DNA of 64,000 nucleotides. Source: Miniphocaeibacter halophilus (GTDB taxonomy: Bacteria; Bacillota; Clostridia; Tissierellales; Peptoniphilaceae). Made by a program: the position numbers and the translations under genes. Location of the stretch: the NCBI RefSeq assembly GCF_016458825.1, contig NZ_CP066744.1, forward strand, positions 1,981,868 through 2,045,867, given 5' to 3'. Numbering within the stretch: position 1 is the first letter of the stretch; the number at the start of each line of letters is the position of its first letter. Below, piece after piece: positions 7,277 to 20,408 of the stretch. The notes beneath the pieces were generated by a model. It saw nothing but the letters and a program-made list of their open reading frames with translations, was not told the DNA's origin and ran no database searches.

Positions 7277-7606
7277 ATGGATTTAGTATCAAAAGCAAGA
7301 GAGTTAGGAATAGAAATATCAAAAAGTGATAAGTTTATTGAGTATAAAAATCTATATAATCAAGTATATAAAGATGAAAAAAATAAAGAGATGATTGATG
7401 ACTTTAGAAAAAAAGTTGTCGACTATCAATTAAATTATGCTAATAAAGGTAAAGAATCAGAAGAAGAACTAAAAAAACTAGAAAATTTACAAAACATTAT
7501 GATGATGAATCAAGATTTAGGAAAATTTTTAATTGCAGAAACTAATTTCTCCATAGAGTTAAAAGATATTTATGAAGCAATAGAAAAGGAACTAGAACTA
7601 GAATAA
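7277..7606 (+). CDS. YlbF/YmcA family (DUF964) protein
   Basis: A 109-residue, mostly helical, charged protein resembling the YlbF/YmcA (RicF/RicA) family. In Bacillus these proteins form the Ric complex, which binds Fe-S clusters and directs RNase Y cleavage. The recognisable part is YNQVYKDEKNKEMIDDFRKK (about residues 28-47). Only one member is seen here. Position directly after RNase J fits an RNA-decay accessory role, but that is inference. AGGAGG precedes the start, and its TAA overlaps the ATG of the next gene. Confidence 0.75.
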   Translation: MDLVSKARELGIEISKSDKFIEYKNLYNQVYKDEKNKEMIDDFRKKVVDYQLNYANKGKESEEELKKLENLQNIMMMNQDLGKFLIAETNFSIELKDIYEAIEKELELE

Positions 7607-8250
7607 TGATAGTAAATAAAGTTGTTGAAGAATATATTAGAAACAAATCTCAAACTAGCAATGATTTATTGAAAGAAATTGAAGAATTTGCTATCAAGAA
7701 CAATATTCCTATTATAGAACCAGAAGTTAGAAACTTTCTAGGAATGCTTGTAAGAATAAAAAAACCTTATAAAATATTAGAAATTGGAACTGCAATTGGA
7801 TATTCATCTATAATAATGAAAATGGCATCTAAGGATTCTAAAATAACTACAATTGAAATAAATGAAGAAAATTTTTTAAAAGCCAAATCAAATATTAAAA
7901 AGTTTGGTTATGAAAAAGATATTCATTGTATACTTGGAGACGCTAATGAAGTGATTGATTTATTAGACGATAATTATGATTTGATTTTTATAGATGCTGC
8001 TAAAGGACAGTATGTAAATTTTTTAAAAAAAACAATTGATAAATTAAAAATTCATGGGCTTTTAATTTCTGACAATGTTTTATTTCGTGGCATGGTAGCA
8101 GAAGAGAAATACAAGCAAAAAAGACATAGAAAAGTTACTATAGTAAAAAGATTAGATGAATATATTGATTTATTAATTAATGACAAAAGACTATCATCAT
8201 CTATTGTGCCAATAGATGATGGTATGATGATAACTTATAGAAATATATAA
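7606..8250 (+). CDS. trmR: SAM-dependent O-methyltransferase, TrmR (YrrM)-like
   Basis: A 214-residue class I methyltransferase of the COG4122 family. The SAM-binding motif ILEIGTAIGYSSI, the acidic TTIEINEE, LGDANEVID, and the metal-site FIDAAKGQY and ISDNVLFRG are visible. In B. subtilis the orthologue YrrM (TrmR) methylates 5-hydroxyuridine 34 of tRNA to 5-methoxyuridine and lies next to the U32 genes that make 5-hydroxyuridine. Here it ends the housekeeping operon, and the U32 gene lies 5.8 kb further on, after the catechol genes. The assignment to TrmR rests on that neighbourhood; a small-molecule catechol-type methyltransferase is the main alternative. Confidence 0.75.
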   Translation: MIVNKVVEEYIRNKSQTSNDLLKEIEEFAIKNNIPIIEPEVRNFLGMLVRIKKPYKILEIGTAIGYSSIIMKMASKDSKITTIEINEENFLKAKSNIKKFGYEKDIHCILGDANEVIDLLDDNYDLIFIDAAKGQYVNFLKKTIDKLKIHGLLISDNVLFRGMVAEEKYKQKRHRKVTIVKRLDEYIDLLINDKRLSSSIVPIDDGMMITYRNI

Positions 8251-8286: not shown

Positions 8287-9033
8287 ATGGGAAGTGTTTT
8301 TATACAATCAGTAGATAGGGCGTTTAAAATTTTAGAATATATTTCAAAAAATAATTCCGCAGGTATATCGGAAATGTCCAGAAACTTGGATATTAATAAG
8401 AGTACAGTTTTCGGATTAGTTAAAACTTTAGAAAAGTTAGGTTATGTTGCACAAAATAATACAGATGATAAATATATGCTTACTTATAAGTTCTATATAT
8501 TATCAAGTAGATTTGTTGACAATTTGCCAATTATAAATATAGCAAAGCCCTATTTAAAGATGTTGAATAATAAATATGGGGAAACTATACATTTGGTTGT
8601 ATCTACAGAGGATTCAGCAATATATATTGATAAATTTAGTGGTCTAAAATCTATAACTGTATCCACTAATGTAGGAGATAAAAGACCTTTACATTGTACA
8701 GGTGTAGGAAAGGCTATATTATCTTTGAGAACAGATGAAGAAATATTAGAGTATGCAGATAAATTTGGCTTGGAAGCTTTTACAAAAAATACCATTACTA
8801 ATAAGTTTAAACTTATTGAAGAAGCTGAAAAAATAAGAGAAAGAGGATATAGTATCGATGATGAAGAAACACAATATGATTTATATTGTATAGCAACTAG
8901 TATTGAATTAGATGAAACAGAGTATGCTATTAGTGTTTCTATGCCTAAATTTAGGGTTAATGATGAAATTAAAAAAAATATTATTAAAGATTTATTAAAT
9001 ATAAAAGATAAAATTATAAAAAAACTTGATTAA
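8287..9033 (+). CDS. IclR family transcriptional regulator
   Basis: A 248-residue regulator with an N-terminal winged helix (VDRAFKILEYISKN, ISEMSRNLDINKSTVFGLVK, about residues 8-50) and a C-terminal effector domain (RPLHCTGVGKAIL, ERGYSIDDEE, SVSMP). IclR members often control aromatic catabolism. It begins 36 bases after trmR with GGAG nearby and no terminator between, so it may be expressed from the upstream operon. It ends 4 bases before the promoter of the meta-cleavage operon and is the obvious candidate to bind the palindrome there. The effector (catechol or a ring-cleavage product) is inference. Confidence 0.9.
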   Translation: MGSVFIQSVDRAFKILEYISKNNSAGISEMSRNLDINKSTVFGLVKTLEKLGYVAQNNTDDKYMLTYKFYILSSRFVDNLPIINIAKPYLKMLNNKYGETIHLVVSTEDSAIYIDKFSGLKSITVSTNVGDKRPLHCTGVGKAILSLRTDEEILEYADKFGLEAFTKNTITNKFKLIEEAEKIRERGYSIDDEETQYDLYCIATSIELDETEYAISVSMPKFRVNDEIKKNIIKDLLNIKDKIIKKLD

Positions 9034-9036
9034 AAC

Positions 9037-9065
9037 TTGACATATGTCAAATAAGCTAATATAAT
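9037..9065 (+). promoter_or_regulatory. Consensus promoter of the meta-cleavage operon with a palindrome over the -35
   Basis: TTGACA at 9037-9042, a 17-base spacer and TATAAT at 9060-9065 give a perfect vegetative promoter. The -35 is the first half of the perfect 14-base palindrome TTGACATATGTCAA at 9037-9050, so a dimeric regulator bound there would block polymerase. The adjacent IclR protein is the likely ligand. Downstream, imperfect arms ATAAATGAG (9088-9096) and CGCATTTAT (9119-9127) flank the leader of the ferredoxin gene and could be a second site or a hairpin. Confidence 0.8.
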
Positions 9066-9141
9066 ATAGTAAAATAAAGGTATGCTAATAAATGAGAACG
9101 ATGTATTATATTATAGTACGCATTTATAGAGGATATATATT

Positions 9142-9423
9142 ATGAAATATAAGGTTAGATTTTTAAAAGAAGGATTAGAGTTTTTTTGTAATAGTGATGA
9201 ATCAATTTCTCATGCTATGAATAGAGTGAACAATAGACATCCAATTGTCGGATGCAGAGGTGGTGGCTGTGGAATTTGTAAGATAAAAATTTTAGGTGGT
9301 GATTATGAATTAGGAAGAATGAGTAAAGCAGTTATTTCTGAATGTGAAATAGGAAAAGGTTATACACTAGCATGTAAGACTTATCCAAGATCTGATTTGT
9401 TAGTTGAATTTGTAGAAAAATAA
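9142..9423 (+). CDS. Plant-type [2Fe-2S] ferredoxin, XylT-like
   Basis: A 93-residue ferredoxin with cluster cysteines C38, C43, C46 and C78 (CRGGGCGIC and LAC), the CX4CX2C plus distal Cys pattern of plant-type ferredoxins. It lies directly upstream of the catechol dioxygenase, the position of xylT in TOL-type pathways. XylT-like ferredoxins re-reduce the active-site iron of catechol 2,3-dioxygenase after oxidation, and that is the proposed role here. First gene of the operon; its start follows GAGGA. A general electron carrier is the alternative but less likely from context. Confidence 0.85.
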   Translation: MKYKVRFLKEGLEFFCNSDESISHAMNRVNNRHPIVGCRGGGCGICKIKILGGDYELGRMSKAVISECEIGKGYTLACKTYPRSDLLVEFVEK

Positions 9424-9454
9424 TTAATTTAATATTTTATCAAGGAGGTACAAA

Positions 9455-10378
9455 ATGGCTATTACTGGTATATTGCGAGTAGGTTTAGTTCAGATTAGAG
9501 TATTGGATTTTGAAGAATCTCTAGTGCATTATAGAGACAGGATAGGATTAGATGTTGTAGGGAACATAGATGAAAATAGGTTAATGTTAAAGGCATATGA
9601 CGAATTTGATCATCATTCCGTTGTATTACATAGAGCGGAAAAAGCAGGAATTGATTTTATAGCTTTTAAAGCAGACAATGAAGAGACAATTGATAGAATA
9701 AAGAAAGAAACGGAAGACAAATATAAATTTAATTATGAAATAATAGACGATCAGCCTGGTTTTGGACCTATTCATACTTTTACAGTACCAACAGGTCATA
9801 AAATTGGTATTTATAGTGAAGTTGAAATGGCAGAAGATTATCCAATGATACAAAATCCTTTTATTTGGAAAAAGGAACCTAGGGGCATGAGAGCAACTCA
9901 TTTTGATCATGCATTATTATATGGTCCAGACCAAAAAACTACAGTAGAATGGTTTACTAAAGTTTTAGGATTAAGTATATCTGAAATATTATTAAAAGAG
10001 GATGGAAAAGAAAGCCTATGTACATGGCTAACAGCAAATACCAGAGGACATGATCTTGCTGTATTGGATTTTCCAGAACCAAACGTTTTACATCATATTT
10101 CTTTCCATTTAAATAGTTGGGAAGATGTTGGAAATGCAGCTGATATAATGGCTAGATATGATATCTCTATAGATGCAGGTCCAATGAGACATGGTATTAC
10201 TAGAGGACAAACAATTTATTTCTTTGATCCTTCTGGAAATAGAAATGAAGCCTATGCAGGTGGATATGAATATTTCCCAGATCATCCAGTTAGAGTTTGG
10301 GACTATGATCATGCTGGTGCTGGAATTTTCTACTATGATAAAGCATTAAATGACAGATTCTTATCTGTATATACTTAA
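9455..10378 (+). CDS. Catechol 2,3-dioxygenase (extradiol, XylE type)
   Basis: Cleaves catechol with O2 next to the two hydroxyls, giving 2-hydroxymuconate semialdehyde. The protein is 307 residues, the same as Pseudomonas XylE, with two vicinal-oxygen-chelate halves. Predicted Fe(II) ligands are H152 (FDHALLYG), H214 (LHHISF) and E265 (GNRNEAYAGG). The second-sphere residues H199 (TRGHD), H246 (MRHGITRG) and Y255 also match XylE numbering as I recall it. All catalytic residues are therefore intact. AAGGAGG precedes the start. Preference for catechol over methylcatechols cannot be decided from sequence. Oxygen dependence is odd for the anaerobe suggested by the rest of the window. Confidence 0.93.
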   Translation: MAITGILRVGLVQIRVLDFEESLVHYRDRIGLDVVGNIDENRLMLKAYDEFDHHSVVLHRAEKAGIDFIAFKADNEETIDRIKKETEDKYKFNYEIIDDQPGFGPIHTFTVPTGHKIGIYSEVEMAEDYPMIQNPFIWKKEPRGMRATHFDHALLYGPDQKTTVEWFTKVLGLSISEILLKEDGKESLCTWLTANTRGHDLAVLDFPEPNVLHHISFHLNSWEDVGNAADIMARYDISIDAGPMRHGITRGQTIYFFDPSGNRNEAYAGGYEYFPDHPVRVWDYDHAGAGIFYYDKALNDRFLSVYT

Positions 10379-10445
10379 AATATATGCTTTAAAATCAATG
10401 AGAATATATTTGAAAGTTTATAAATAAGAAAAGGAGTGATGTATT

Positions 10446-11264
10446 TTGACTAGACCAGAAATTGGAAAAAGTGTAATTACTGGTAAATATAAAACAAATT
10501 ATTTAGAATCAGGAAAGGGTTATCCATTAATCTTTATACATGGATCTGGCCCTGGAGTTTCTGCTTATGCTAATTGGAGATTAGTTTTGCCTAAGGTTGC
10601 TGAGAAAGCTCATTGTTATGCAATGGATATGTTAGGGTTTGGATATTCTGATAAACCTACTGATGTAAAATATGGAATGAAGATTTGGACTCAACAAATA
10701 GTAGATTTTATGGATGCTCTCAATATAGAAAAAGCAGATTTTGTAGGAAACTCCTTTGGTGGCTCATTAGCCTTATCAATGGCTTTAAAATACCCAGAAA
10801 GGGTAAGAAAATTGATTATGATGGGACCAATGGGAGTAGAGTTTGATATATCTTATGGATTAAATGAAGTTTGGGGATATAAACCATCTAAAGAAAATAT
10901 GTTAAAACTAATTCAACTTTTCTGCTATAATCAAGAATATGCAACAGAAGAATTAGCTGAAGTTAGGTTTAAAGCAAGTACTGAACCAGGTTTCCAAGAA
11001 GCTTTTAGTTCTATGTTCCCTGAACCTAGACAAAATTCAGTAGATGATATGTCCTTTACAGATGAGGAAATTAAGACTGTAAAAAATCAGACTATGATTG
11101 TACATGGTAGAGAGGACAAAGTAATTCCTGTAGATAATGCCTTTAGACTTATAAAATTAATAGAAAATGCGGAATTACATGTATTTGGACATTGTGGACA
11201 TTGGACTCAAATTGAAAGAGCAGATGACTTTTCAGAATTAGTAAAATATTTTATATCCAAATAG
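10446..11264 (+). CDS. 2-hydroxymuconate semialdehyde hydrolase (XylF/DmpD-like)
   Basis: A 272-residue alpha/beta hydrolase. The oxyanion region is FIHGSGPG, the nucleophile elbow is GNSFGG with S103, and the acid and base are D224 (HGREDKVIP) and H252 (GHCGHWTQIE). By family and context it hydrolyses the ring-cleavage product to 2-hydroxypenta-2,4-dienoate plus formate, or plus an acid if the catechol was 3-substituted. It begins with TTG at 10446, placed by the strong AAGGAGTGA site at 10431-10439; no better ATG lies nearby. Lies 67 bases after the dioxygenase gene and before an intra-operon hairpin. Confidence 0.9.
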   Translation: MTRPEIGKSVITGKYKTNYLESGKGYPLIFIHGSGPGVSAYANWRLVLPKVAEKAHCYAMDMLGFGYSDKPTDVKYGMKIWTQQIVDFMDALNIEKADFVGNSFGGSLALSMALKYPERVRKLIMMGPMGVEFDISYGLNEVWGYKPSKENMLKLIQLFCYNQEYATEELAEVRFKASTEPGFQEAFSSMFPEPRQNSVDDMSFTDEEIKTVKNQTMIVHGREDKVIPVDNAFRLIKLIENAELHVFGHCGHWTQIERADDFSELVKYFISK

Positions 11265-11271
11265 AGCTTGT

Positions 11272-11309
11272 ATAAATATAGAAGTCGCTGCAGTGGCTTC
11301 TATATTTAT
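11272..11309 (+). terminator. Intra-operon hairpin after the hydrolase gene
   Basis: A 13-bp stem with arms ATAAATATAGAAG (11272-11284) and CTTCTATATTTAT (11297-11309), closed by two more pairs around a GCTGCAGT loop. It is followed by ATTTAAAAA and not by a continuous T run, so it is a weak terminator, an RNA-processing site or a stability element separating the ring-cleavage genes from the hydratase-aldolase genes. Confidence 0.6.
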
Positions 11310-11329
11310 TTAAAAACAGAGGTGGAAAT

Positions 11330-12100
11330 ATGGATAAATTGAAAAAAATAGCTGATAAATTATATGATGCATCAAATAATTTTTATCAAATAGAACCAAT
11401 TAGTAATACTTATAAAGATTTAACAATTGATGATGCTTATAAAATTCAATTGATTAATCATAAAAAAGAACTTGAAAAAGGAAAAAAAATAACTGGAAAG
11501 AAAATTGGCTTAACCTCAAAAGGTATGCAGGATGCTATTGGAGTAGACCAACCGGATTTTGGTATTTTATTTGATGATATGGAAGTAAAAGATAATATTA
11601 TAGATACTTCTAAAATTTTACAGCCAAAGGTAGAGGGAGAATTAGTATTTGTTTTAAAAGAAGATATAGGGAAAAATATTACATATGAAAGAATTATAGA
11701 GGCCACAGATTATGTAGCTCCAGCAATAGAAATTGTTGCAAGTAGAATAGAAAATTGGGCAGTTACTATAATTGATACTATTGCAGATAATGCTTCATGT
11801 GGTCAATATATAGTTTCAGATATAAAGATTGATCCTAGAAAAACAGATTTGAAAAAAATTGAAATGACAGTATATAAAAATGGAGAGTTTATAAATAAAG
11901 GATTTGCAACTGAGGTGCAGGGAGATCCTGTAAATGCAGTAGTTTGGTTAGCGAAAACTCTTGGGAAATACGGAGTTGAATTTAATAAGGGAGATGTAAT
12001 ACTATCAGGAGCTATTACAGGAGCTGTAGCTGCTGAAAAAGGTGATAAATTTATTTGTGACTATGGCGAATTCGGTAAAATAGAAATAGAATTCGATTAA
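11330..12100 (+). CDS. 2-hydroxypenta-2,4-dienoate (2-oxopent-4-enoate) hydratase
   Basis: A 256-residue member of the fumarylacetoacetate hydrolase-related hydratase family (XylJ/DmpE/MhpD). It hydrates 2-hydroxypenta-2,4-dienoate to 4-hydroxy-2-oxovalerate. The family pattern is present: GKKIGLTSKGMQ, QPDFGILFDDM, PKVEGELVFVL with the metal-site glutamates, APAIEIVASRIE and GDVILSGAITGAV. Starts behind AGGTGG and precedes the aldehyde dehydrogenase by 13 bases. A 4-oxalocrotonate decarboxylase is a paralogous alternative, but no tautomerase or semialdehyde dehydrogenase is present to supply its substrate. Confidence 0.88.
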   Translation: MDKLKKIADKLYDASNNFYQIEPISNTYKDLTIDDAYKIQLINHKKELEKGKKITGKKIGLTSKGMQDAIGVDQPDFGILFDDMEVKDNIIDTSKILQPKVEGELVFVLKEDIGKNITYERIIEATDYVAPAIEIVASRIENWAVTIIDTIADNASCGQYIVSDIKIDPRKTDLKKIEMTVYKNGEFINKGFATEVQGDPVNAVVWLAKTLGKYGVEFNKGDVILSGAITGAVAAEKGDKFICDYGEFGKIEIEFD

Positions 12101-12113
12101 GTAGGAGACGCAT

Positions 12114-12995
12114 ATGAAAAAAATTAAAGTTGGAATAATTGGTCCAGGAAACATAGGACAAGATTTAATGATTAAAATTGGAAGAAGTAAATATTTAGAG
12201 TTGACATGTGTAGTAAATATTAGAGAATCAAAAGGACTTGAGAGAGCAAGAAAATTAGGTGTAGATGCATCTCCTTTAGGAGTAGATTACCTAATTGAAA
12301 AATATACAGGTATAATCGATATAGTATTTGATGCTACTTCTGCAAAGGCACATTTATCCGCATATAAAAAATTACAAGATGCAGGTATGTTTGTATTGGA
12401 TTTAACTCCAGCGGCAGTTGGACCTTACTGTGTTCCAGCTGTAAATTTAGATAGAAATATGTTAAGAGAGAAAGAAGTAAATTTAGTTACTTGTGCAGGT
12501 CAAGCTACAACTCCTTTAGTAAACGCTATTAATGAAGTAGCAGATGTTTACTATGCTGAAATTGTATCATCTCTAAGTTCAGATAGTGCTGGAGCTGGTA
12601 CGAGAGCTAATATTGATGAATTTACTGAAACGACAAAGAAAGCTTTGGAAACAATTGGTGGTGCTGATAAAGCTAAAGCGATTATTATTTTGAATCCAGC
12701 AGATCCTCCAATCTATATGAGCAATACAATATATACAAGAGTAAAAGATGTAAATATGGAAAAAATTACTAAAGCTACAGATGAGTGTATAAATAGAATG
12801 AAAGAATATGTTCCAGGTGTAAGATATAAAATGACTCCAACTTTAAAAGATCTTAATGATGATATTGTTATGTTAATTGTTGAGGTGGAGGGTTTAGGTG
12901 ACTATTTACCAATACATTCTGGAAATTTAGACATAATAAATGCTTCTGCAATAAAAATTGCAGAAGAAAAAGCAAAAGAATTACTGGGGGTGTAG
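12114..12995 (+). CDS. Acetaldehyde dehydrogenase (acylating), DmpF type
   Basis: A 293-residue NAD-dependent enzyme converting acetaldehyde plus CoA to acetyl-CoA. The nucleotide-binding GIIGPGNIGQDLM is at the N-terminus, and the catalytic thiol is C127 in NLVTCAGQATTP. Length and motifs match the short DmpF/BphJ class that forms a channelling complex with the aldolase, not the long AdhE class. It is separated by one base from the aldolase gene, consistent with joint synthesis of the complex. Confidence 0.93.
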   Translation: MKKIKVGIIGPGNIGQDLMIKIGRSKYLELTCVVNIRESKGLERARKLGVDASPLGVDYLIEKYTGIIDIVFDATSAKAHLSAYKKLQDAGMFVLDLTPAAVGPYCVPAVNLDRNMLREKEVNLVTCAGQATTPLVNAINEVADVYYAEIVSSLSSDSAGAGTRANIDEFTETTKKALETIGGADKAKAIIILNPADPPIYMSNTIYTRVKDVNMEKITKATDECINRMKEYVPGVRYKMTPTLKDLNDDIVMLIVEVEGLGDYLPIHSGNLDIINASAIKIAEEKAKELLGV

Positions 12996-12996
12996 T

Positions 12997-14004
12997 ATGC
13001 CTAAAGTATTTGTTACAGATACTACTTTAAGAGATGGTAGTCATAGTGTTGGACATAAATTTGATTTAGACGATATAAAGGAAATATGTAAAGGATTGGA
13101 TGAAGCTAAAGTAGATATTATTGAAGTTGGACATGGAGATGGGCTAACAGGATCAACATGTAATTATGGTTTTTCCAAATATGATGACTTTGAAATGTTG
13201 GAAGCTGCATCATCAGTAATTAAAAATTCTAAACTTGCAACCTTATTATTGCCAGGTATAGGAACGGTTGAAGACTTAAAAAAAGCTAAGGAATGTGGTG
13301 TTGAAGTTGTAAGAATAGCCACTCATGTTACTGAAGCCGATATTTCCCAACAACATATTACTGAAGCTAAAAAAATGGGATTCTTTGTTGTAGGATTTTT
13401 AATGATGGCTCATAGGGCTAATGTTGATAAAGTTTTAGAAGAAGCTAAAAAAATGGAATCCTATGGTGCTGATGTAGTTTATGCAACAGATTCAGCAGGA
13501 GCAATGTTACCTAATGACGTAAGAAATAAAATTGGTACTTTAGTGAAGGAGTTAAAAATTCCTATAGGATTTCACTCTCATGACAATTTAGGTTTAGCAA
13601 TAGGAAACTCTATAGCAGCTATTGAAGCGGGAGCAACATATTTAGATGGTTCTTTAGGTGGTCTAGGGGCAGGAGCAGGAAACACTCCAACTGAAATGTT
13701 AGTTGCGGTTTTGAATAGATTAAAAATAGAACATAATGTAGATATGTTTAAAACAATGGATGTTAGTTCTAAAAAATTAATACCTATAGTGAAAAAATAT
13801 GGTGTAAACTTAAATAATTTAGAAGATTCTATGATGTTAGGTTATTCAGGAGTGTATTCAAGTTTCATGTTACACGCTAAAAGAGCAGCAGCTCGTTTTA
13901 ACGTAGATTATAGAGATATAATTTTAGAATTAGGACGTAGAGAAGCAGTAGGTGGACAAGAGGATTGGATAGTGGAAATAGCAGAGCAATTAGAAAATAA
14001 ATAA
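12997..14004 (+). CDS. 4-hydroxy-2-oxovalerate aldolase, DmpG type
   Basis: A 335-residue HMGL-like aldolase splitting 4-hydroxy-2-oxovalerate into pyruvate and acetaldehyde, which passes to the partner dehydrogenase. The catalytic TTLRDGSHSVGH gives R12, D13 and H16; metal ligands are H193 and H195 in GFHSHDNLGLA. The C-terminal communication domain has GREAVGGQEDWI. The chosen ATG at 12997 follows GGGGGTG; an in-frame opening at 12958 lies inside the dehydrogenase gene and has no ribosome site. Last gene of the operon, before a strong terminator. Confidence 0.94.
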   Translation: MPKVFVTDTTLRDGSHSVGHKFDLDDIKEICKGLDEAKVDIIEVGHGDGLTGSTCNYGFSKYDDFEMLEAASSVIKNSKLATLLLPGIGTVEDLKKAKECGVEVVRIATHVTEADISQQHITEAKKMGFFVVGFLMMAHRANVDKVLEEAKKMESYGADVVYATDSAGAMLPNDVRNKIGTLVKELKIPIGFHSHDNLGLAIGNSIAAIEAGATYLDGSLGGLGAGAGNTPTEMLVAVLNRLKIEHNVDMFKTMDVSSKKLIPIVKKYGVNLNNLEDSMMLGYSGVYSSFMLHAKRAAARFNVDYRDIILELGRREAVGGQEDWIVEIAEQLENK

Positions 14005-14009
14005 TTTTA

Positions 14010-14047
14010 AAATAAATGATATAGAAATCTATATCATTTATTTTTTT
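14010..14047 (+). terminator. Terminator of the meta-cleavage operon
   Basis: A perfect 15-bp stem (arms 14010-14024 and 14029-14043, loop AAAT) running into a T7 tract to 14047. It lies 5 bases after the aldolase stop codon and separates the catechol operon from the U32 peptidase gene. Confidence 0.92.
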
Positions 14048-14092: not shown

Positions 14093-15313
14093 TTGAAAAA
14101 AGTAGAATTATTAGCTCCAGCAGGAGATTTGGAAAAATTAAAAATTGCAATTATGTATGGTGCCGACGCTGTATATTTAGCAGGTGAGGCATTTGGAATG
14201 CGCACAGCTTCTAAAAATTTTGATGAAAAACAATTAAAAGAAGGTGTAGAATTTGCACATAAAAGAAACAAGAAAGTATATATTACTTTAAATATAATTC
14301 CACATAACGATGATTTGGATGGATTAGAAGAATATGTTCAATATTTAGTAGATATTGATGTTGATGCAGTAATAGTATCGGATCCAGGAATATATTCAAT
14401 AGTTCGTAGTGTCAGTGAAGATTTAGAAGTACATTTGTCAACTCAAGCATCGGTTACAAATTATAAGACGGTAAAATTCTGGGAAAAGATGGGAATTAAA
14501 AGAATAGTCTTAGCTAGAGAATTATCACTGGATGAAATAAAAAGAATAAAAGAAGAAGTTCCAAATATGGATTTAGAAGTTTTTGTTCATGGTGCAATGT
14601 GCATTTCATATTCTGGACGATGTTTATTAAGTAACTATATGACAGGTAGAGATGCTAATAGAGGAGATTGTGCACAGGCTTGTAGATGGAAATATCATTT
14701 AGTAGAAGAAAAAAGGCCAGGAGAATATTATCCAATAGAAGAAACGGATAAGGGTACATTTATATACAATTCAAAGGATTTATGTATGATTGATTCTTTG
14801 GATGACTTAATATCTTCAGGAGTAGATAGTTTAAAAATAGAAGGAAGAGTTAAAACACAGTATTACGTTGCAACTGTTATAAGGAGTTATAGAATTGCAA
14901 TAGATGCTTATTACAATGGAAATTACACTAAAGAACTGGCAGACTATCTTTTGAATGAGATTAAGAAATCAAGCCATAGAGATTTTACTAAGGGATTTTT
15001 TTATAATAAGCCAACAGCAGAAGATCAATTATACACTTCTAGTTCATATACTAGAAATTATGATTTTGTTGGCATAGTACTAGATTATGATGAAGAAACT
15101 AAAATAGCAACTATTGAGCAAAGAAATAGAATATTTAAGGGAGATAAATTAGAAGTTTTTGGACCAGAAAAAGATTTTTATAATTTTGAAATTGGAACAA
15201 TGATAAATGATGAGGGGAAAGAAGTAGATGTAGTTCCTCGAGCAAGGGAAATTTTTAAAACTAAAATTAATTTTCCAGTAAAACCATGGTATATGTTAAG
15301 AAAAAAATTATAG
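14093..15313 (+). CDS. U32 family peptidase, TrhP/YrrO-like tRNA hydroxylation protein
   Basis: A 406-residue U32 protein. The family signature EVFVHGAMCISYSGRC and the cysteine-rich GRDANRGDCAQACRW are visible in the middle, and IEGRVKTQYYVATVIRSYR follows. Proteins of this subfamily (TrhP, YrrN/YrrO) make 5-hydroxyuridine at position 34 of tRNA using prephenate and an Fe-S site, the step before TrmR. It begins with TTG at 14093 after AGGGGG. In B. subtilis it adjoins yrrM; here the catechol island lies between them. Collagenase-type peptidase activity, for which U32 was named, is the less likely alternative. Confidence 0.85.
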   Translation: MKKVELLAPAGDLEKLKIAIMYGADAVYLAGEAFGMRTASKNFDEKQLKEGVEFAHKRNKKVYITLNIIPHNDDLDGLEEYVQYLVDIDVDAVIVSDPGIYSIVRSVSEDLEVHLSTQASVTNYKTVKFWEKMGIKRIVLARELSLDEIKRIKEEVPNMDLEVFVHGAMCISYSGRCLLSNYMTGRDANRGDCAQACRWKYHLVEEKRPGEYYPIEETDKGTFIYNSKDLCMIDSLDDLISSGVDSLKIEGRVKTQYYVATVIRSYRIAIDAYYNGNYTKELADYLLNEIKKSSHRDFTKGFFYNKPTAEDQLYTSSSYTRNYDFVGIVLDYDEETKIATIEQRNRIFKGDKLEVFGPEKDFYNFEIGTMINDEGKEVDVVPRAREIFKTKINFPVKPWYMLRKKL

Positions 15314-16208: not shown

Positions 16209-17762
16209 ATGAAGAAAGAAAAATTTAGTTTCAAAAAGGAAACGATATTTATTATTTCCATGTTACTGGTCTTTGTAATTGTTCTTTGGGGATTATTACA
16301 TACATCTAGTTTTGAAAGTACTGCAAACACAGTATTTAACTTTTTATCTGGTAATTTTAGTTGGCTTTATACTCTGGCTATGACATCGTTTGTAGTATAT
16401 GCATTGTGGCTTGGGTTTATTAGTAAATATAAAAACATAAAATTAGGACCAGATGATTCAAAGCCAGATTATAAAACAATAACATGGTTTGGAATGTTGT
16501 TTTCAGCTGGTATGGGTATAGGGTTAGTGTTTTGGGGAATAGCAGAACCACTTAGTCATTATTTACAACCAGCGGCAGGAATTGAAACTGCATCACTGGA
16601 GTCGGCTAAATTTGCAATGGAGAAATCGTTTTTACATTGGGGATTACATCCTTGGGCAAATTATTGCATTATAGGTTTAGGATTAGCATATATGCAATTT
16701 AGAATGAAAAAACCCGCTTTAGTAAGTAGTATATTTATTCCTTTACTTGGTGAAGAAAAGACTAAAGGAGGCCTTGGGAAATTAATAGATATATTAGCTG
16801 TCTTTGCGACAGCAGGAGGAATGGCAACATCTTTAGGATTAGGTACATATCAAATAAATAGTGGTTTAAATTATCTATTTGGCATTCCTGAAAGTACTAC
16901 AGTCCAGTTAATAATAGTAGTAGGAATAACTATTATATATACAGGAACAGCCGTAGCTGGAATAGATAAAGGGATAGCTGCAATTTCCAATTTAAATATG
17001 ATTTTAGTGGCTATCTTATTATTGGGTTCTTTTGTATTTGGACCTACTGTTAAAATTTTAAGTATTTTCATTGAAAGTACAGGCCTATATTTACAGAGAT
17101 TTTTAAGTAGTGCTTTGGAAATGGGTGCATTTAATGAAGATACCTGGTATAGCGGATGGACAATATTTTATTGGGCTTGGTGGATTTCTTGGGCACCATT
17201 TGTTGGAGTATTTATTGCTAGAATTTCAAGAGGAAGAACAATAAAAGAATTTGTGGCAGGCGTTTTATTAGTACCAGCAATATTATCTTTTTTATGGTTT
17301 GCAATATTTGGTGGTATAGATTTTTCTGTTGATATAGCAATTTTAACAGAGGCTGCTAAGAATACAACTACAGCATTTTTCATTGTAATGAATGAGATAC
17401 CTTTTGGGACAATATTATCCATGGTAACTGTAGTTTTACTATTTACTTTTTTTATTACATCAGCAAACTCAGCAACTTTTGTTCTTGGTATGCTATGTGA
17501 TGAAGGAAAACTAGAACCAAATAAAATGAAAATGGGAGTTTGGGGTATTTTAATATCAGCTTTAACTTTAGCACTAATGTTAGGAACTAGTAATGGATTG
17601 AATATGTTGCAAACAATTTCCATTGTAGCAGCTTTTCCATTTATATTTATAATGTTTTTTGCTATGTATGCATTAAAAAAAGCCTTGGATAAAGATCCAT
17701 ATACAATTGAATTAGATAGACAAAAGAAACTAGCAAAAGAAAAAGCGGCGGCTTTAAAATAG
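16209..17762 (+). CDS. BCCT family transporter, likely glycine betaine
   Basis: A 517-residue inner-membrane carrier of the betaine/carnitine/choline family with about 12 hydrophobic segments. GMGIGLVFWGIAEPLSHY (from about residue 100) is the substrate and ion region, and YWAWWISWAPFVGVFIAR carries the tryptophan-rich substrate box. Sodium or proton coupling cannot be read with certainty. The C-terminus is short and basic, so osmotic gating like that of BetP is not evident. It is followed after 9 bases by the reductase genes, which suggests uptake of betaine as an electron acceptor rather than only as an osmolyte. Confidence 0.92.
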   Translation: MKKEKFSFKKETIFIISMLLVFVIVLWGLLHTSSFESTANTVFNFLSGNFSWLYTLAMTSFVVYALWLGFISKYKNIKLGPDDSKPDYKTITWFGMLFSAGMGIGLVFWGIAEPLSHYLQPAAGIETASLESAKFAMEKSFLHWGLHPWANYCIIGLGLAYMQFRMKKPALVSSIFIPLLGEEKTKGGLGKLIDILAVFATAGGMATSLGLGTYQINSGLNYLFGIPESTTVQLIIVVGITIIYTGTAVAGIDKGIAAISNLNMILVAILLLGSFVFGPTVKILSIFIESTGLYLQRFLSSALEMGAFNEDTWYSGWTIFYWAWWISWAPFVGVFIARISRGRTIKEFVAGVLLVPAILSFLWFAIFGGIDFSVDIAILTEAAKNTTTAFFIVMNEIPFGTILSMVTVVLLFTFFITSANSATFVLGMLCDEGKLEPNKMKMGVWGILISALTLALMLGTSNGLNMLQTISIVAAFPFIFIMFFAMYALKKALDKDPYTIELDRQKKLAKEKAAALK

Positions 17763-17771
17763 GAGGATATT

Positions 17772-19100
17772 ATGAAAAAACTTGAAATAGGAAATTTTCA
17801 TGTAAAAGATGTAGTTTTTGGAAATGAAACTTCTTATAAAGATGGTTTACTTATTATTAATAAAGAAGAAGCAATGGATTATATTTTAGAAGACGAACAT
17901 ATTACTTCACTGGATTTGAAAATAGCAAAACCTGGAGAAGATATTAGAATAGTACCAGTAAAAGAAGCAGTAGAACCTAGAATTAGACCAGATGGAAGAG
18001 CATTATTTCCTGGTGTTATCGGTGATTTAGCTCCTACAGGAGAAGGAATAGTACATGCATTAAAGGGAATTAGTGTACTGGGAGTAGGAAAACATTATGG
18101 AAGTTTTGGTGATGGTGTAGTTGATATGGGTGGAAAAGGTCAAAAATATACATTATTTGGACAATTAATTAATGTAGTCTTAATAGCCGATACAGACGAA
18201 GAGGAAGAAAGATTTGAACAACAGAAGAAAAATCATGCAATTAGATGGGCTGCACATAAATTAGCGGAGTATATAGGTAGGGCTGTTAAGGATTTAGAAC
18301 CGGAAGATAAAGACATATATGAATTTGAAGGCGTTACTAAAAGGGATGAAAAAACAAATAATCTACCATCAGTAGTACTTGTAATGCAACCTCAATCCCA
18401 AATGGAAATGATGGGCTATAACGATTTAATATATGGATGGGATATGAACCATTATGTACCTTCCTTTATTAATCCAAATGAAATTTTAGATGGAGCTTTA
18501 ATTTCTGGTAGTTTCATGCCGTCATCATCAAAATGGTCAACATATGAAATGCAAAACTTTGAGACTATAAAGGAACTTTATTCAAGACATGGTAAAGAAA
18601 TAAATTTTTTAGGAGTAATTCTATCCAATTTAAATGTTTCTTTAGAACAAAAAGAAAGATCAGCTATATTTGTAGCTAATATTGCTAAATCTTTAGGAGC
18701 AGATGGAGCTATAGTTACAGAAGAAGGATATGGTAATCCAGATGTTGATTATATAAGATGTATAGTAGCTTTAGAGGATGTAGGAGTAAAAACTGTAGGA
18801 ATAAGTAATGAATGTACAGGAAGAGATGGAAAATCTCAACCGTTAGTAGTATTAAATGAAAAAGCTAATGCCCTAGTATCTACAGGAAATGTTTCAGACT
18901 TAATAGAACTTCCAGCATGTGAAATAGTTTATGGAGAACTTGCAGCATTGGGAAGAGATGGTTTGTCTGGTGGTTGGGAAGGCGATGAGAAATTAGGACC
19001 TTCTGTAAGAGAGGACGGTTCCATTATACTAGAGAACAATGCAATGTTTTGTGGCGATGGAATTAGTGGTTGGTCTGTAAAAACCGTTAAAGAATTTTAG
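17772..19100 (+). CDS. grdI: Betaine (or sarcosine) reductase protein B, GrdI/GrdG-like subunit
   Basis: A 442-residue homologue of the GrdE proprotein (GrdE/GrdG/GrdI family), one subunit of the substrate-binding protein B of Stickland-type reductases. It is recognised by PTGEGIVHALKGISVLGVGKHYGSFGDG-type sequence at about residues 88-115 and GADGAIVTEEGYGNPDVDY. GrdE is cleaved at a cysteine that becomes a pyruvoyl group; here the matching region reads ALISGSFMPSSSKW with S247 and no cysteine, so it is probably not processed. That agrees with betaine and sarcosine types, which use uncleaved subunits. Betaine is preferred because of the upstream BCCT gene; symbol tentative. Confidence 0.8.
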   Translation: MKKLEIGNFHVKDVVFGNETSYKDGLLIINKEEAMDYILEDEHITSLDLKIAKPGEDIRIVPVKEAVEPRIRPDGRALFPGVIGDLAPTGEGIVHALKGISVLGVGKHYGSFGDGVVDMGGKGQKYTLFGQLINVVLIADTDEEEERFEQQKKNHAIRWAAHKLAEYIGRAVKDLEPEDKDIYEFEGVTKRDEKTNNLPSVVLVMQPQSQMEMMGYNDLIYGWDMNHYVPSFINPNEILDGALISGSFMPSSSKWSTYEMQNFETIKELYSRHGKEINFLGVILSNLNVSLEQKERSAIFVANIAKSLGADGAIVTEEGYGNPDVDYIRCIVALEDVGVKTVGISNECTGRDGKSQPLVVLNEKANALVSTGNVSDLIELPACEIVYGELAALGRDGLSGGWEGDEKLGPSVREDGSIILENNAMFCGDGISGWSVKTVKEF

Positions 19101-19109
19101 GAGGATAAT

Positions 19110-20408
19110 ATGAAAAAAGTTGTACATTATATAAATCAATTTTTTGCTGGTATTGGTGGCGAAGATAAAGCGGATATTAAGCCTGAAATACGAGAAGGTA
19201 TTGTAGGACCAGGTGCTGAATTAAATAAAAAATTAAATGCCGAAGTTACCCATACTATTATATGTGGTGACAATTACTTTGGAAGTAATACAGAAAAGGC
19301 AATAGAAGATATATTAGATATGTTAGAAGAAATAGAATTTGATGCTTTTGTAGCAGGTCCGGCATTTCAAGCAGGTAGATATGGTGTAGCATGTGGTAAT
19401 ATTTGTAAAGCTGTTCAGGACAAATTTAATGTTCCGGTTATTACATCAATGAACATTGAAAATCCTGGAGTTGAAATGTTTAAATCTGAATTGATAATAT
19501 TCAAAGGTGGAAAATCAGCAGCTTCTATGAGAAAAAACATAGCTCCAATGGCAGATTATTTAAATAGAGTCCTAGAAGGAAAAGAATTGAAATCTGCAGA
19601 GGAAGAAGGATACTTTTCAAGAGGAATTAGAAAACAAGTTTGGTTGGAAAATCCGGTTAAAGCTTCTAAACGTGGCGTAGATATGTTAATTAAGAAATTA
19701 AAAGGCGAAGAGTTTCAAACTGAATTAGTAATTGAAGCTAAGGAAGTTATTCCAATGGCAGAACCTATTAAAGATCTAAAAAAAGCCAATATAGCAGTAG
19801 TAACAAGCGGAGGAATCGTACCAGTTGATAACCCTGATAGAATTCAATCAGCATCTGCTACTAGATGGGGTAGATATGATATTTCTAATATGGATAGATT
19901 AAAAAGTGGAGAATTTAAAACTATTCATGCTGGTTTTGATCCAGAAGCTGCAGACAATGATCCTAATAGAGTGACGCCAATAGATGTTTTAAAAGAGATG
20001 GAGAAAGAAGGAATTTTTGGCAAATTACATCCTTATTTCTATTCAACAGTAGGAACAGGCACTACCCAAGCAGAAGCTTCTAGAATGGGTAAGGAGATAA
20101 TAGAATATCTTAAAGAAGATTCAGTAGATGGTGTAATACTTACATCTACGTGAGGTACTTGTACACGTTGCGGTGCAACTATGGTAAAAGAAATAGAAAA
20201 AGCAGGTATACCTGTAGTACAAATGTGTAACTTGATTCCTGTGGCTCAGACAGTAGGAGTTAATAAAATAGTACCAACAATATCAATACCATATCCTTTA
20301 GGTGATCCAACAACACCTGAAGAAGTTCAACATAAATTGAGATATGACAGAGTTAAAAGAGCTTTAGATTCATTAACTATAGAAATAGAGGAACCTACAA
20401 TTTTTTAA
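19110..20408 (+). CDS. grdH: Betaine (or sarcosine) reductase selenoprotein subunit, GrdH/GrdF-like
   Basis: Selenoprotein of 432 residues read through an in-frame TGA at 20151-20153, giving selenocysteine at residue 348 in LTSTUGTCTRCGATMVKEIE. The UxxCxxC redox motif is that of the GrdB/GrdF/GrdH family, and the total length fits it. With the preceding subunit it binds betaine, releases trimethylamine and hands a carboxymethyl group to the selenoprotein GrdA. The gene follows its partner by 9 bases behind AGGAGG. Without recoding it would look like two short genes. grdA, grdC, grdD, thioredoxin genes and sel genes are not in the window. Confidence 0.9.
20151..20186 (+). promoter_or_regulatory. 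UGA selenocysteine codon with SECIS-like hairpin
   Basis: The UGA at 20151 is followed by a perfect hairpin, GTTGC (20167-20171), loop GGT (20172-20174), GCAAC (20175-20179), with possible outer pairs TAC/GTA at 20162-20164 and 20184-20186. The apical GG lies 18 bases after the UGA, the distance and loop type required for SelB binding in bacterial SECIS elements. It also encodes the CTRCGAT redox motif. Confidence 0.8.

Follow-up and report, generated by a model that had tools for sequence, protein, structure and literature searches.

The stretch of DNA described here is 64,000 nucleotides of the Miniphocaeibacter halophilus genome (Peptoniphilaceae; contig NZ_CP066744.1, positions 1,981,868 to 2,045,867) and is referred to throughout as the window. 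Between positions 9037 and 14004 it contains a consensus promoter followed by six intact plus-strand genes, preceded by a gene for an IclR-family regulator (Table 1). A single unit holds a catechol 2,3-dioxygenase (C23O), a hydrolase, a hydratase, an acylating dehydrogenase and an aldolase, the five enzymes that mark the hydrolytic lower pathway of the xyl/dmp type, with a XylT-type ferredoxin that has all four cysteines of its [2Fe-2S] site directly upstream of the C23O. This route takes catechol and O2 to formate, pyruvate, acetyl-CoA and NADH. Ring cleavage that depends on O2 is usually taken as the mark of an aerobe; here an intact set of its genes occurs in anaerobes that have been cultured and have described type strains.

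Table 1. Features of the window at and around the meta-cleavage operon
Feature	Position	Strand	Evidence
Class I methyltransferase (Methyltransf_3), taken as trmR	7606..8250	+	Pfam PF01596; left border of insertion, outside pathway
Inserted segment	8245..14008		blastn match of congener G001 stops at 8244 and restarts at 14009
IclR-family regulator, presumed regulator of the cassette	8287..9033	+	PF09339 and PF01614
Sigma-A promoter TTGACA-17-TATAAT	9037-9065	+	12/12 consensus match
Candidate IclR operator	9096..9119	+	GAAC, then 17-bp near-palindrome GTATTATATTATAGTAC, 7/8 pairs; downstream of -10
XylT-like [2Fe-2S] ferredoxin	9142..9423	+	Fer2; 45% identity to pDK1 ferredoxin beside xylE; Cys 38, 43, 46, 78
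C23O	9455..10378	+	TIGR03211 over cut-off; 1mpy best by sequence and fold; active site intact
Meta-cleavage product hydrolase, XylF/CumD type, TTG start	10446..11264	+	alpha/beta hydrolase family; 51% to pDK1 XylF; GNSFGGS nucleophile motif
2-oxopent-4-enoate hydratase (XylJ type)	11330..12100	+	TIGR03220; 39% to XylJ, 32% to XylI
Acylating acetaldehyde dehydrogenase (XylQ type)	12114..12995	+	TIGR03215 380 bits, cut-off 282; 48% to XylQ; VTC(A/G)GQ conserved
4-hydroxy-2-oxovalerate aldolase (XylK type), DmpG communication domain	12997..14004	+	TIGR03217 475 bits, cut-off 286; PF07836; 46% to XylK; best PDB match 1nvm
Intrinsic-terminator-like hairpin, operon end	14009..14044	+	17/17 pairs, loop of 2, then T run
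U32 peptidase-family protein, taken as trhP	14093..15313	+	PF01136; right border of insertion
GrdB selenoprotein	from 19110, in-frame TGA 20151		GRDB PF07355, residues 2-347 of 347; open sequence GTCTRCG... after TGA

The enzymes of the operon

An earlier note, made from the letters of the window alone, had named the ferredoxin, the XylE-type C23O and the four enzymes that follow, and each of these proves to be an open frame with a match to the expected family. The six frames are separated by gaps of 31, 67, 65, 13 and 1 bases, the last of these depending on the start of the aldolase, which is most likely the ATG at 12997 behind GGGGGTG rather than the mechanically called TTG at 12958.

The C23O scores 341.1 bits with the TIGR03211 model for catechol 2,3-dioxygenase, above the curated equivalog cut-off of 320.2, and far lower with the models for HpaD (162) and BphC (79); ten further cassette C23Os, chosen from those collected, are all above the same cut-off. 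It is 41% identical to XylE of pDK1, and the six residues listed in the earlier note (H152, H199, H214, H246, Y255 and E265) are all found at their positions and are invariant in 14/14 aligned anaerobe sequences. We take these to have the catalytic roles known for the family, with H199, H246 and Y255 in the second sphere. A fold search of the PDB with the AlphaFold model of the protein ranks 1mpy (XylE) first with a template-modelling (TM) score of 0.87, and together with the residues this gives a two-domain type I extradiol fold with a 2-His-1-Glu site; the enzyme is predicted to be active on catechol with O2. The best PDB match of the hydrolase is 2d0d, a 2-hydroxy-6-oxo-7-methylocta-2,4-dienoate hydrolase for which CumD is presumably the name, at 345 bits against 147 for BphD (2og1).

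Homologues of XylT, XylE, XylF, XylJ, XylQ and XylK, 39-51% identical, lie in the same order in the window as in the xyl operon of pDK1, the order of which we take to be xylT-E-G-F-J-Q-K-I. Unlike pDK1, the cassette in the window has no detected XylG or tautomerase, its FAH-family enzyme is nearer to XylJ (188 bits) than to XylI (135 bits), an IclR gene lies upstream, and no benzoate dioxygenase (Ring_hydroxyl_A) or phenol hydroxylase was found in the genome.

For comparison 26 stretches were examined, these being the window, four genomes of the family and 21 loci from a scan of genome contigs. The five core enzymes occur together in 22 of them, the exceptions being L009 and L100, which are cut by contig ends, L099, where 14 kb of a 140-kb contig has just the C23O, the IclR regulator, the ferredoxin and the hydrolase, and L023. 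Ferredoxin matches, all of 38.9 bits or more, were obtained in 24/26 and IclR homologues of more than 60 bits in 11/26. XylG was not found in the window, and all that was seen of it across the 26 stretches was a 55-residue piece in L022, while four out of four plasmid operons were positive. The XylH tautomerase was detected in none of the 26 at an E-value of 0.01, with a short query that also gave nothing in two of the four plasmid stretches, where the gene is cut off or unannotated. The 4-oxalocrotonate branch (XylG, XylH and XylI) is thus not found in the cassette of the window, the rest of the genome not having been searched for XylG or XylH. What is left would be a hydrolytic branch with one O2-dependent step, so that each ring would cost one O2 and yield one NADH before the pyruvate is used.

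Control sequences and the site of insertion

The promoter is the best of 38 promoter-like sites between 8200 and 15500, a region that has no overall excess of such sites (the shuffled mean is 44.3). A 14-nt palindrome over the -35 box (9037-9050) was considered as an operator and set aside as it is not kept in the congener G002. The candidate operator that is retained comes from a comparison, made by eye and without a shuffle test, of six cassette leaders (the window, G002, G018, G035, L007 and L008), two pairs of which are close relatives. Each leader has a single GAAC, followed in most by a 17-bp near-palindrome (7, 7, 4, 3, 6 and 7 of 8 pairs respectively), and before the GAAC a box resembling TTGACA or TAGACA is spaced 16-17 bases from one resembling a -10. 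Since five of the six have an IclR gene upstream, the exception being G035 with none in the stretch examined, the combination of GAAC and near-palindrome is suggestive of an IclR operator.

The earlier note had credited the operon with its own promoter and its own terminator, and whilst the first of these stands the second seems not to. The hairpin after the aldolase is present, although it is absent from the list of a terminator scan that requires a loop of 3-8 and three G-C pairs, but a similar one can be seen by eye 3' of trmR in the operon-free site of the congener G001. The hairpin is part of the right flank, therefore the operon has been placed upstream of an older terminator, and it seems to use this trmR terminator that predates the insertion.

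The two genes that border the insertion are presumably trmR and trhP, and their spacing was surveyed in 20 chosen genomes of the family including that of the window. Nineteen have a U32 (trhP-like) match, G005 being the one without, and in 16 of these a trmR-like gene lies directly upstream; the cassette comes between the two genes in the window genome and in G002, and in G022 no trmR was seen. G001 has an empty site with trmR and trhP flanks that match the window on both sides, albeit in a fragmented assembly (880 contigs, 9% contamination). As judged by its U32 protein G001 is 95% identical to the window and G002 86%, and because G002 shares the site yet is the more distant of the two, insertion in an ancestor followed by loss in G001 is the simplest history. 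The frames of the G002 cassette are intact and its five core enzymes are 79-88% identical in protein sequence to those of the window. The cassette does not look like a recent arrival because the GC content at third codon positions (GC3) of its genes, 0.13-0.18, is like that of their neighbours (0.14-0.19 in six other genes of the window).

Anaerobic hosts, descent of the dioxygenase and a possible supply of catechol

That the host is an anaerobe, as the earlier note supposed, agrees with a 2025 paper which describes the Peptoniphilaceae as strictly anaerobic cocci. M. halophilus itself is reported, in the title of its description, to have been isolated from a biogas system. CydA of cytochrome bd was found in none of 12 genomes (10/14 controls were positive), other terminal oxidases not being searched for. 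The selenoprotein reductase noted previously in the window is likewise borne out, as a GRDB match with an in-frame TGA and open reading beyond it. A second described isolate, Microaceticoccus formicicus AMB_02T (G018), described as strictly anaerobic, also carries the cassette, making two in all.

A search among relatives gave matches in 6/149 genomes, one of which (G122, 18.8 bits) is merely a weak domain match, and when 398 genomes were drawn from the phylum of the window five passed the TIGR03211 cut-off, the window genome included. The scan of genome contigs confirmed 21 of 29 candidate loci, from 13 spirochaetes (11 titled Treponema sp. and two Spirochaetia), six Bacillota, one member of the Coriobacteriia and one of the Synergistaceae. 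The titles of 19 of the 21 name a metagenome-assembled genome (MAG), and we take these taxa to be anaerobes, with many of the bins coming from termite guts. Some of the Treponema loci have duplicated genes, with two C23Os in L011 and L020 and two dehydrogenase-aldolase pairs in L018; in L023 (7974-8909), a Clostridiales MAG, the C23O is without any other pathway gene in a stretch of 15 kb.

The comparison of the dioxygenase with its homologues called for in the earlier note has been made as a tree of 47 rows, in which the nearest rows to the window are from other anaerobe-type hosts, beside plasmid enzymes of sphingomonads. All 27 anaerobe-cassette C23Os (from 25 genomes in four phyla, two being second copies) lie on one side of a branch with support of 100/98, in a biased sample, its anaerobe rows having been picked for their resemblance to the window and the rest being mainly plasmid-borne. 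This clade joins the Novosphingobium and Sphingobium plasmid enzymes (100/99) within a mainly proteobacterial set. The label "aerobe" in the tree means for some genomes merely that the row is not a cassette row, the three outgroup rows do not fall on one side of a branch, and of two fragments that of G035 (169 residues) is omitted and that of L027 (269 residues) kept. A clade of the four Peptoniphilaceae rows is rejected by the approximately unbiased (AU) test (p 3e-6), as G030 goes with the Coriobacteriia row whereas Miniphocaeibacter is placed with rows from Christensenellaceae and Clostridia; the gene has therefore been passed between anaerobes. The clades cannot be told apart by raw identity, the C23O of the window being 50% identical to that of Novosphingobium and 47-50% identical to the spirochaete rows and most of the other distant cassette rows.

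The C23Os of the Novosphingobium plasmids pLA1 and pNL1, at 49-50% identity, are the closest found outside the cassettes, but these plasmids differ in gene order, have XylG and the tautomerase, and carry ring-hydroxylating dioxygenase genes nearby. The C23O of Burkholderia vietnamiensis G4, presumably of subfamily I.2.C and the one possibly related enzyme examined, is 34% identical to that of the window and falls outside the anaerobe clade. Subfamily I.2.C (the TbuE type) has been proposed as a hypoxia-adapted C23O for low O2 (Kukor and Olsen 1996, as cited in PMC5972620 and PMC2784041), and this proposed role would be shared with the enzyme in the window.

The earlier note knew of no described catechol-fermenting clostridium using this route, and the idea that nothing like it is known is not supported, in that Lucey and Leadbetter (2014, Mol Ecol 23:1531) reported meta-cleavage genes, that of a C23O among them, from "anaerobic" Treponema primitia, likewise a nominal anaerobe. 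C23Os of the 13 Treponema and Spirochaetia loci fall within the same clade as that of the window, the T. primitia sequence itself being outside the tree sample; these loci belong to another phylum, and those whose genes were listed have another gene order, with the hydrolase before and the C23O after the remaining pathway genes. No literature was found on a catechol dioxygenase in the Peptoniphilaceae, and the titles and openings of abstracts surveyed had nothing on meta-cleavage in clostridia. What is added to the known systems is cultured hosts in the Peptoniphilaceae, a single anaerobe clade in four phyla, the lack of a 4-oxalocrotonate branch, the placing of the cassette between trmR and trhP, and an AroY-type source of catechol that would need no O2, the last three of these also going beyond the earlier note.

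A genome-wide search for aromatic hydroxylases, suggested earlier as a check, has now been run. Ring_hydroxyl_A was found in 0/12 genomes (4/14 controls positive) and Phenol_Hydrox in none of the five cassette-bearing genomes (3/3 plasmid controls positive), nor in 12 genomes searched without a positive control. FAD_binding_3 matches all 12 genomes, 11 of them above the cut-off, but none of the five matches in the window genome extends over more than 41 of the 349 positions, all at the nucleotide-binding end. As no hydroxylase was found, catechol would need to be supplied ready-made. A UbiD-family protein encoded elsewhere in the genome (G000:C1:936985-938445) matches the AroY structures 5o3n, 5ny5 and 5o3m at 632-637 bits over ~482 residues. 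This is a full-length match to the known AroY protocatechuate decarboxylases with a flavoprotein-family gene close by, but the gene is unlinked to the operon. Full-length AroY-type proteins (98-100%) are present in two of 130 family genomes, those of the window and G001, and a link between AroY and the cassette is plausible, without support from co-occurrence.

Several observations were made beside these genes. A gene for a LysR-type regulator precedes the AroY-type gene, and 1.1 kb from the latter lies a divergent gene of the flavoprotein family, possibly UbiX (L101:5300-8445; G000:C1:935300-938445). Genes for a UbiD decarboxylase and a UbiX flavin prenyltransferase in M. formicicus (L102:1993-7804) have as neighbours that of an amidohydrolase resembling adenine deaminase and at least three for shell proteins of a bacterial microcompartment (BMC); a prenylated-flavin decarboxylase may here be housed in a microcompartment. 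Some of the open reading frames flanking cassettes in Treponema and elsewhere were scanned for a UbiD/UbiX pair or aromatic-funnel genes, and the candidates proved to be phosphoglucose isomerase, a flavin reductase match just below cut-off, an AMP-binding enzyme, radical SAM proteins, ATP-binding cassette (ABC) permeases, MgtE and housekeeping genes.

Oxygen as a probable co-substrate and the competing explanations

We would put a probability of about 0.7 on the cassette being a working, probably IclR-regulated catechol meta-cleavage pathway through which a member of a strictly anaerobic family uses trace O2 as a co-substrate. The AroY-type decarboxylase would make catechol from protocatechuate without O2, and the Fe(II)-dependent C23O would then cleave catechol, or a simple methylcatechol, to 2-hydroxymuconate semialdehyde, with the XylT-like ferredoxin re-reducing C23O that O2 has inactivated. 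The hydrolase is predicted to free formate (or acetate) and 2-hydroxypenta-2,4-dienoate, and the hydratase, aldolase and acylating dehydrogenase would convert the dienoate to pyruvate, acetyl-CoA and NADH. Three explanations had been offered in the earlier note, and of these the catabolism of catechol with trace O2 to pyruvate and acetyl-CoA fits best, whilst an unrecognised substrate is less likely because the C23O and the hydrolase both score as types acting on catechol or monoalkylcatechols.

A number of observations weigh against this. The cassette is rare, with a C23O in 5/130 genomes and 4/39 genera of the family, and the biogas digester that is the source of M. halophilus is nominally anoxic. 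The hydratase reaches 271.7 bits with TIGR03220, below the curated cut-off of 408.8, although this is still the best of four matching models (the decarboxylase model TIGR03218 gives 192 bits). No ferredoxin was detected in L007 or L023, the latter having the C23O alone. The C23O model is of middling confidence, with a predicted local distance difference test (pLDDT) score of 75.9 and a predicted TM score (pTM) of 0.81, and is poor at 126-139, 241-248 and 288-307. The searches for hydroxylases and oxidases covered CydA, Ring_hydroxyl_A, Phenol_Hydrox and FAD_binding_3 and did not extend to further flavin, di-iron or heme-copper enzymes of these two classes. The AroY-type protein scores 479.7 bits with the NCBIfam VdcC model (NF041204), below its curated cut-off of 650, and AroY and the cassette do not co-occur in the congeners, G001 having AroY without the cassette and G002 the cassette without UbiD. 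Finally the operon has a GC content of 31.6% against 28.0% in its flanks; the BCCT and GrdG genes elsewhere in the window reach 32-33%.

A different role for the same chemistry would be protection, the operon clearing O2 and toxic redox-cycling catechols together with any gain of carbon incidental. One O2 is consumed per catechol, the host family is strictly anaerobic with cytochrome bd not found, and an own promoter with an adjacent IclR gene would fit induction by catechol. A scavenger, however, needs no full lower pathway, yet the chain to acetyl-CoA is complete in the great majority of the stretches examined, and the removal of O2 would hinge on the supply of catechol; it would seem unlikely that protection is the main function.

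Less likely still is that the natural substrate is another vicinal diol, such as an alkylcatechol (4-methyl- or 4-ethylcatechol) or a breakdown product of a plant phenolic. The best PDB match of the hydrolase acts on an isopropyl-bearing product, and position 191 of the C23O is Trp in 14/14 anaerobe rows and Phe in XylE of pDK1, though Trp is also found in the G4 enzyme. An import of acids would also fit, in that the operon of G035 (L100:841-3742) has a tripartite ATP-independent periplasmic (TRAP) transporter (DctP, DctQ and DctM) between the hydratase and the acylating dehydrogenase, which suggests uptake of an organic or aromatic acid. Against this the C23O is above the equivalog cut-off for catechol 2,3-dioxygenase and far from HpaD and BphC, and hydrolases of the XylF and CumD types also accept unsubstituted or methylated ring-cleavage products.

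That the cassette was left behind by horizontal transfer and now lies silent, without a function in its anoxic host, is very improbable; its rarity in the family and its absence from G001 would fit, but the frames are intact in both the window and G002, the promoter is a perfect consensus and the GC3 is host-like. Contaminating DNA of an aerobe, or the chimeric contig allowed for in the earlier note, can be rejected as hardly credible in spite of the O2-dependent genes and the GC difference, given that the genome is one contig of 2,394,777 bp, the same as the size published for DSM 110247T (PMC12079837, which gives 2,510,182 bp for M. formicicus AMB_02T), that the cassette is at the same site in G002 and present also in G018, that its GC3 is like that of its neighbours and that the nearest C23O rows are from anaerobe-type hosts.

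Returning to trace O2 as a co-substrate, the intact genes in cultured type strains make it directly testable whether a fermenter can gain carbon and energy from aromatics with O2 merely as co-substrate. Such a gain would matter for the removal of phenol in micro-aerated digesters, for annotation that uses C23O as a marker of aerobes and for the movement of O2-using genes among anaerobes. A broader proposal, to which we would give somewhat less than an even chance, is that the cassette has a dedicated lineage of its own in anaerobes, hydrolytic-only and spread horizontally among strict anaerobes of at least four phyla, for an "oxygen-assisted fermentation" of plant phenolics that is fed by AroY in M. 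halophilus. O2-dependent breakdown of plant phenols may be a habit common to anaerobes where traces of O2 leak in.

Downstream of the insertion, at 16209-20153 of the window, genes for a BCCT glycine betaine transporter, a GrdG-like protein and the GrdB selenoprotein lie in that order. With the sarcosine GrdG model the GrdG-like part reaches 325 bits, short of the cut-off of 780, and the reductase is therefore perhaps one for betaine or another substrate.

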